From contig NZ_CP133594.1 in the NCBI RefSeq assembly GCF_031312535.1, positions 1,612,001 to 1,676,000 on the forward strand: DNA of 64,000 bases, given 5' to 3'. The stretch comes from Methanolobus mangrovi (GTDB lineage: Archaea > Halobacteriota > Methanosarcinia > Methanosarcinales > Methanosarcinaceae). The notes below the pieces were generated by a model. That model was not told the DNA's origin and did no database searches. It saw only the letters and a program-made list of their open reading frames with translations. A program made the translations under genes and the position numbers. Positions within the stretch are counted from its first letter, which is position 1. Each line of letters opens with the position of its first letter. Below, piece by piece: positions 26,902 to 28,294 of the stretch.

Positions 26902-28131
26902 ATGTTAATCAATGCCGACCTTCATCTTCATTCCAAATATTCGATGGCTTGTTCGAATAAAATGGAACTGCCAGTAATGGCAGAAGAAGCGGCAAAAAAA
27001 GGTATAGACCTGGTTGCAACCGGGGACTGCACCCATCCCGATTGGTTAAAGGAAATTAAAAAAGCAGCAGTGAATGATGAAACTGTAGCCATCGGGAAAA
27101 CTAATTTTATAATCACTACTGAAGTGGAAGATAGCAGCCGCGTACATCACTTGCTTATCTTACCATCAATTTCAAAAGCTGAAGAGCTTGCAGAGAGATT
27201 GAGCAAATACACCAACCTAAAAGCTGATGGAAGACCCACGGTAAGGCTCAATGGATGTGAAATTGCCGAGATTGCAAAGGATATAGATGCAATGATCGGC
27301 CCCTGTCATGCATTCACACCGTGGACAGCATTGTATGCATACCATGATTCTCTTAAAAGTTGCTATGGAGATATGAAAGACTATGTTTCATTCCTTGAAC
27401 TTGGCCTGAGTGCTGATAGTGACTATGCAGACAGGATAGAAGAACTCCACAGACTTACATTCCTTTCTAACTCCGATGCACATTCCCCCTGGTCCAATAA
27501 ACTTGCACGGGAGTTCAACCAGCTTAATGTTCCAGAAATATCCTTTGAAGGATTGCGAAAAGCTATTTTAAGAGAAGATGGTTACGGAGTTACCCATAAT
27601 GTCGGATTCTACCCCCAGGAAGGAAAATACAATGAATCCGCGTGCATCAAATGTTTTACACATTACAGCTTAGAAGAATGCCTTGCAAGCAATTGGAAAT
27701 GTGCCAACTGTGGCGGACTCGTCAAAAAAGGAGTTAAGGACAGGGTGAACGAGCTTGCAAATTTCGATGAGCCAAAACATCCCCCACACAGGCCACCTTA
27801 TGTACACCTGATGCCTCTTTCCGAAATAATTATGACTGCACTTGGACATGCAAGCATAAACACCAAGGGCGTGCAGACTGCATGGAACGGCCTGATGCAA
27901 AGATATGGTAACGAATTGAATGTACTCCTGAATGCCAATACAGACGAAATGAGCAAAATGGATTTTCTGGACAAACATGTTGTAAATGCGATACTCGCAT
28001 TCAGGGAAAAGAAACTTATAATTCACCCCGGCGGCGGTGGCCAGTACGGTCACATCGAAATCCCACAGGAAATACAGGATACAATACCATCGCTCCAAAA
28101 GAAGAATCAGAGTTCTCTCTTTGACTTCTAA
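26902..28131 (+). CDS. Endonuclease Q (PHP family DNA repair nuclease)
   Basis: EndoQ cuts 5' of deaminated bases such as hypoxanthine, uracil or xanthine and of abasic sites. The N-terminal PHP domain has the metal motif DLHLHSKYSMACS (residue 6 on), ATGDCTHPDW and FLSNSDAHSPWSNKLAREF. A zinc finger follows near residue 250 (CIKCFTHYSLEECLASNWKCANCG). A C-terminal helical domain contains a helix-hairpin-helix-like part and ends SLFDF, resembling a PCNA-interacting tail. At 409 residues it fits the Thermococcales/Methanosarcinales form. It starts seven bases after PAC2. Confidence 0.9.
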   Translation: MLINADLHLHSKYSMACSNKMELPVMAEEAAKKGIDLVATGDCTHPDWLKEIKKAAVNDETVAIGKTNFIITTEVEDSSRVHHLLILPSISKAEELAERLSKYTNLKADGRPTVRLNGCEIAEIAKDIDAMIGPCHAFTPWTALYAYHDSLKSCYGDMKDYVSFLELGLSADSDYADRIEELHRLTFLSNSDAHSPWSNKLAREFNQLNVPEISFEGLRKAILREDGYGVTHNVGFYPQEGKYNESACIKCFTHYSLEECLASNWKCANCGGLVKKGVKDRVNELANFDEPKHPPHRPPYVHLMPLSEIIMTALGHASINTKGVQTAWNGLMQRYGNELNVLLNANTDEMSKMDFLDKHVVNAILAFREKKLIIHPGGGGQYGHIEIPQEIQDTIPSLQKKNQSSLFDF

Positions 28132-28180
28132 ACATTACCTCGTTACCTTTTTAAGAGATTAAGACCTTCAAACCCAAAGT

Positions 28181-28294
28181 GCCGAGGTGGCAGAGCGGAC
28201 TAATCCAACGGCAAATGCCTTGGAGTCCATACGCGACCGGCTCGAGACCGGTTTCTCCGGAAGGAGTGCTTGGGTTCAAATCCCAACCTCGGCG
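28181..28294 (+). tRNA. tRNA-Ser(CGA) with a 28-nt insertion in the D arm
   Basis: Acceptor GCCGAGG pairs with CCTCGGC (28287-28293), with discriminator G at 28294; CCA is not encoded. The anticodon arm is ACCGG-CTCGAGA-CCGGT (28236-28252), with anticodon CGA at 28243-28245. The long variable arm CTCC-GGAA-GGAG marks a serine tRNA. The T arm TTGGG-TTCAAAT-CCCAA is perfect. The D arm is normal only if 28205-28232 is removed: GCA then pairs with TGC and an 11-base D loop remains, giving an 86-nt tRNA. The insertion extends a helix GGACT/AGTCC, a three-base bulge AAT, and CCAA/TTGG with GGCA/TGCC, resembling an archaeal splicing motif. Confidence 0.88.

Follow-up and report, generated by a model that had tools for sequence, protein, structure and literature searches.

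Non-canonical tRNA introns of the bulge-helix-bulge (BHB) type occupy D-arm positions such as 20/21, 22/23 and 25/26 in the Crenarchaeota and Thaumarchaeota; euryarchaeal tRNA introns are said to sit only at position 37/38 (PMC4090602). Within the Euryarchaeota, non-canonical introns have been described as confined to three thermophilic methanogens (PMC3218864), and for class II tRNAs no translocatable intron is known (PMC4390854). In terms of enzymology, homodimeric (alpha-prime-2) forms of the splicing endonuclease EndA are described as confined to strict, canonical motifs (PMC6379350, PMC4033280), the (alpha-beta)2 enzyme of Methanopyrus kandleri displays a constrained broad specificity (PMC6379350), and Korarchaeum cryptofilum is described as the only archaeon in which a homodimeric EndA occurs together with non-canonical introns (PMC4033280).

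The gene considered here encodes tRNA-Ser(CGA) in Methanolobus mangrovi and lies on the forward strand of the window, the whole 64,000-nt stretch of DNA that was analysed; its D-arm is enlarged by a 28-nt insert (28181-28294; Table 1). The gene is matched over its full length by the Rfam tRNA model RF00005 (39.7 bits, E 7.5e-07), which places a large insertion in the D-arm; ARAGORN, run on the window, reported no tRNA and missed the gene. The tRNA is intact in its acceptor stem, its anticodon arm, its long variable arm and its T arm, and taking out 28 nt leaves an 86-nt class II tRNA; the remainder is likewise 86 nt in all 62 genes of the family that were parsed. The original prediction, made from the sequence of the window, had proposed a tRNA-Ser(CGA) with a 28-nt D-arm insertion, sound acceptor, anticodon, variable and T arms and an 86-nt product, and in these respects it is borne out by the Rfam match and by the relatives. 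The genome search for an uninterrupted tRNA-Ser(CGA) that it had called for returned the interrupted copy only: in the complete, single-contig genome of 2.62 Mb, a DNA search with the gene matched only itself, and one match was obtained with a pattern built on the CGA anticodon arm and T-arm. The Ser tRNAs GCT, TGA and GGA of the same genome carry no interruption; Tyr(GTA) and one Met(CAT) have 36-nt introns in the anticodon loop. Of the 27 Methanolobus genomes, most have an A/T-rich element like CTATATAA or CTTTTTAAG at a similar place ahead of the gene. The tRNA is immediately preceded by a gene for a PHP-like protein (409 aa, 26902-28131), and the end of a similar frame is seemingly visible at this place in many Methanolobus genomes. 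A match to mir-16 (Rfam) near the tRNA gene scored under its cut-off and is meaningless.

Table 1. Features of the interrupted tRNA-Ser(CGA) gene in window coordinates; cuts (arrows) are predicted.
Feature	Position	Strand	Basis
TATA-box-like element CCTTTTTAAGAG, putative promoter	28146..28157	+	Upstream of tRNA gene; function inferred
Pre-tRNA-Ser(CGA) gene, 114 nt (discriminator base G73 counted)	28181..28294	+	Rfam RF00005 match 1-71/71
Exon 1: acceptor 5' strand, D-stem 5' strand (28190-28192), D-loop to A21	28181..28202	+	Alignment with intronless f4, f5 orthologues
Central helix 5' arm GGAC, in exon 1	28197..28200	+	Fold; 100% pairing over 46 distinct sequences
5' bulge UAA, predicted cut UA↓A (28202/28203)	28201..28203	+	Fold
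Predicted 28-nt intron at the 21/22 junction of the tRNA	28203..28230	+	Bulge geometry and intronless orthologues reading GGACTAACGCG
Inner helix 5' arm UCCAA, partner 28220-28224	28204..28208	+	Fold; UCC/GGA in all aligned rows
Variable intron hairpin (GGC/GCC)	28210..28219	+	Fold
Inner helix 3' arm UUGGA	28220..28224	+	Fold
Central helix 3' arm GUCC, in intron	28225..28228	+	Fold and alignment
3' splice-site loop AUA, predicted cut AU↓A (28230/28231)	28229..28231	+	Fold
Exon 2: A22, C23, D-stem 3' strand, anticodon arm, long variable arm, T arm, acceptor 3' strand	28231..28294	+	Alignment with relatives
Anticodon CGA	28243..28245	+	Sequence

Among relatives, the insert is present in all 27 Methanolobus genomes searched (28-32 nt), in seven more genera of the family (g3, g7, g9, g10, g11, g12 and g14, of which g7 is Methanococcoides) and, beyond the family, in f2 (17 and 23 nt) and f3, two further families of the order; over the relatives its length spans 17-38 nt. 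The genomes with the insert number about 80, comprising 64 of the family, five of f2, ten of f3 and one of another class (G321), and a survey of the phylum matched no genome outside the order besides G321. The comparison with the tRNA-Ser(CGA) of related genomes that had also been called for retrieved the same insert with the same splice motif in all 27 Methanolobus genomes and in many other genera, a recurrence far beyond chance. The original remark that such an intron would be unexpected in Methanosarcinaceae matches the literature but not the family, since the insert is the rule in eight of its genera. In f2 (L190, L191), the intron goes down to 17 nt, barely more than the splice motif. The D-arm intron of G321 (L310; 84% complete) is of the same kind, GGACAA↓ATCCG...GTTCAC↓ACGC, and would reflect an old origin, a transfer or a binning error. 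One f3 genome (G120; L194) has, some 2 kb from the gene, an additional, decayed copy of the tRNA's 3' part, perhaps the relic of an integrating element.

The exons and the insert have evolved at very different paces: within Methanolobus, mean divergence is 2.5% for the exons (86 nt) versus 28% for the intron core, and there are 26 distinct inserts versus 11 distinct exons. The elements that stay fixed in this genus are an initial GGAC...ATCC and a terminal GGAGTCYAWA. The 45-nt D-arm region folds at -15.3 kcal/mol (z -3.07), and the fold of the whole pre-tRNA has a z of -3.56, with none of 200 shuffles as good. The minimum-energy fold comprises a central helix GGAC/GUCC, the 3-nt bulge UAA, an inner helix UCCAA/UUGGA and a small hairpin, which is mostly still present in other species with a differing sequence. 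Across 46 distinct aligned sequences, the central and UCC/GGA pairs are standard in 100% of cells, the outer central pair alternating between G-C and G-U (GGAC/GUCY), and the first base of the 5' bulge is U, C or A among species with the pairs undisturbed. Covariation argues weakly for the central helix because its pairs hardly vary, and little compensatory change is seen. The 3' splice site is unpaired in 63 of 63 distinct sequences, and the complete motif appears in the minimum-energy fold of 39 of the 63 distinct inserts versus none of 1260 shuffles. In the other 24, the minimum-energy fold of the isolated region is without the complete motif, and most of these open the central helix for an alternative outer helix, GCG/CGC; this alternative has only three central pairs and a 4-nt 3' bulge and, at -14.1 kcal/mol, is 1.2 kcal/mol worse.

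Several features place the motif with the BHB type, namely a central helix, roughly 4 bp long, formed by exon 1 with the intron, a 3-nt 5' bulge followed by an intron-internal helix, a normal tRNA equal to the intronless orthologues once the insert is removed, and a genome that encodes both EndA and RtcB. By the strict definition, with outer helices on both sides and 3-nt bulges on both strands, the motif fails and is of a relaxed kind, and the insert does not lie at the canonical position 37/38. The 3' site has no directly adjoining outer helix such as a strict BHB needs, C28196 standing opposite C28232 in the main fold; this absence counts against the splicing model, and so does the description of homodimeric EndA as confined to strict motifs. 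Stacking of the D-stem pairs G10-C25 and C11-G24 beyond the internal loop brings the fold to -15.9 kcal/mol.

Cutting each of the two 3-nt elements after its second base would remove 28203-28230 and leave the D-arm GCAGAGCGGACTAACGCG, with the predicted mature junction ...GGACTA↓ACGCG; a cut at 28204-28231 is equivalent and gives the same product. Two families, f4 and f5, carry the same gene without the insert, and their D-arm equals this predicted product: 20 of the 22 intronless genes read exactly GGCAGAGCGGACTAACGCG, and the remaining two (f5, g26), which differ elsewhere in the arm too, read GGCCAAATGCG. One gene, L130, carries a U at 28203 and so speaks for the junction 21/22 over the otherwise equivalent 22/23. 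In most species, positions 12 and 23 of the predicted mature tRNA form an A-C mismatch (28192, 28232). The intronless relatives keep this A12-C23 mismatch as well; it may be tolerated, or its C may be edited to U.

Given a splice motif that is fixed while the core is free, and relatives that lack the insert, the insert is very probably a relaxed BHB-type archaeal intron that lies at the junction 21/22 and is spliced by EndA (cleavage) and RtcB (ligation). The original prediction had likewise likened the insert to a relaxed BHB splice site in the D-arm, and that interpretation gains strong support from the roughly 80 homologues, the intronless orthologues and the EndA and RtcB genes. In the precursor, GGAC of the D-loop would pair with GUCC near the 3' end of the intron, and UCC at the start of the intron with GGA, leaving the UAA bulge and the AUA loop segment; a homodimer of two-domain EndA subunits would then cut UA↓A and AU↓A, and RtcB would join the exons into an 86-nt tRNA with the D-arm GCAGAGCGGACTAACGC. 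The predicted spliced tRNA contains GCAGAGCGGACTAACGCGACCGG. That cleavage and ligation occur, with EndA as the cutter, is what we infer.

One alternative keeps the intron but shifts the cut to 28205-28232, as in the original prediction, which had drawn a helix GGACT/AGTCC with an AAT bulge and a restored GCA/TGC D-stem. Such a cut would give a Watson-Crick A12-U23 pair; moreover, 28204 is U in all aligned rows, and genes of f3, g11 and f5-g26 have U23 instead of C23. The energies of the two registers are near equal, at -15.3 kcal/mol for GGAC/GUCC versus -15.0 kcal/mol with the fifth pair U28201-A28224, and with only 0.3 kcal/mol between them it is the comparison alone that decides. The fifth pair is broken in 6 of 45 rows, and the product, ...AATGCG, is unlike the intronless f4/f5 orthologues (...TAACGCG, with C23); the GGACT/AGTCC pairing was rejected on these grounds. 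The cut would also fall inside the UCC/GGA helix, and a cut at 28205-28232 is quite improbable. Fold and comparison instead indicate GGAC/GUCC, a UAA bulge and UCC/GGA, while bulge geometry and the intronless orthologues move the insert by 1-2 bases to 28203-28230, and the D-stem would hold A12-C23, as in those orthologues, rather than A12-U23.

If the mature tRNA retained the insert, its D-arm would be enlarged by an expansion segment; this would be in keeping with the folding of the insert as a stable arm, yet it is the complementarity between exon and intron that is conserved and not the core, the length ranges over 17-38 nt, and the f4 and f5 orthologues lack the insert exactly at the predicted splice junction. 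A retained insert would also disrupt G18/G19 and the contact between D-loop and T-loop, both part of established tRNA structure, and its probability is slightly lower still than that of the shifted cut. The loss of this tRNA would be tolerable in so far as wobble could let a second Ser isoacceptor (UGA) read UCG; even so, a pseudogene or an assembly error is hardly credible given the same structure in about 80 independent genomes, near-invariant exons, the status of the gene as the only Ser(CGA) copy found and the promoter-like element upstream. The comparison thus makes a retained insert, a pseudogene and an assembly error all very unlikely, and the insert is most likely a real, old and conserved feature, to be read from its sequence as a spliced D-arm intron.

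As to the enzyme, this genome and 18 others (19 of 19), with or without the intron, encode EndA in one ORF that contains two tRNA_int_endo domains, the layout of the homodimeric alpha-prime-2 type. Its best PDB matches, 1r0v/1rlv/2gjw, are the EndA of Archaeoglobus fulgidus (PMC6379350). The RtcB gene is present in the genome (E 3.8e-184). The C-terminal unit of this EndA keeps Tyr291, His302 and Lys333, which we take to be the catalytic residues. Neither hallmark of broad specificity, a two-gene/three-unit arrangement or a crenarchaeal loop ahead of the LSL(I/V)E strand, was found: in length, the segment FYGKPLDNERLQLSLVE is close to its short counterpart in A. fulgidus, versus a long insertion in PDB 3p1y, apparently the A. 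fulgidus enzyme with a crenarchaeal loop grafted in, and it is equally short in the intronless relatives. There is a tension in the mechanism between an enzyme type described as narrow and the relaxed motif found here. The Methanosarcinales EndA might accept a canonical central helix, 5' bulge and inner helix without an outer helix; the tRNA fold might provide the outer helix through the D-stem pairs G10-C25 and C11-G24 stacking beyond the internal loop; or the alternative GCG/CGC outer helix might form transiently. On balance, we lean towards the view that in much of the Methanosarcinales an alpha-prime-2 EndA with neither the crenarchaeal nor the ARMAN loop is the natural nuclease for a relaxed motif in the D-arm of a class II tRNA, in which case the strict-motif rule and the need for an (alpha-beta)2 or epsilon-2 enzyme would be wrong or incomplete.

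Three genera of the family, g4, g5 and g13 (presumably Methanosarcina), form one clade in the EndA tree and carry another, intronless Ser(CGA) with a different body sequence, e.g. GCCCAGGTCGTCTAGTGGTATGGCG. Intronless Ser(CGA) genes of the TCGAAAACC... type were seen at L311, L234, L235, L247 and L248. An intron in Methanosarcina is ruled out, the genus and its neighbours g4 and g5 having this different intronless type, and it looks as if the interrupted gene was replaced there. Being of a different sequence type, the Ser(CGA) of these three genera is uninformative on intron loss at the D-arm site; for the history of the intron, either a loss in f4 and f5 or a gain in f1-f3 would account for its distribution. 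The intron may have been overlooked since the model Methanosarcina species are without it. In the literature searched, which did not cover the key survey of Marck and Grosjean 2003, no description of a D-arm intron in Ser(CGA) was found. tRNA databases may already list it: one model of tRNAscan-SE 2.0 was trained partly on euryarchaeal non-canonical introns, and its tally holds 673 non-canonical introns in 217 genomes (PMC8450103), which makes such a listing likely. Simple tRNA finders miss the gene, so that Ser(CGA) may seem absent from these genomes.

A D-arm intron in the tRNA-Ser of a largely mesophilic order would be an exception to the statements that restrict euryarchaeal introns to 37/38, non-canonical ones to three thermophiles, and their occurrence with a homodimeric EndA to Korarchaeum; it would extend non-canonical introns to class II tRNA and offer a natural substrate for probing the range of homodimeric EndA, with the intronless and gene-replaced relatives as controls. 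Like the introns of Crenarchaeota and Thaumarchaeota, it is short, of the enzyme-spliced type, off 37/38 and endowed with a fast-evolving core, and it shares with them a 4-bp central helix, a 3-nt bulge and a relaxed second splice site. Unlike them, it resides in a mesophilic euryarchaeon whose two-domain, homodimeric EndA lacks the crenarchaeal loop, and in place of many introns per genome there is a single class II tRNA-Ser gene that has kept its intron over much of an order. By comparison with the canonical Tyr(GTA) and Met(CAT) introns of the same genome, which sit in the anticodon loop and are presumably processed by the same EndA and RtcB, the Ser(CGA) intron lies in the D-arm and has no outer helix by its 3' site. 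The EndA of Korarchaeum cryptofilum reportedly shares the crenarchaeal-type loop, whereas the Methanosarcinales enzyme has no such insertion. Methanopyrus kandleri and Methanothermobacter are likewise euryarchaeal methanogens with introns outside 37/38 (PMC4033280, PMC3218864), but those are thermophiles.
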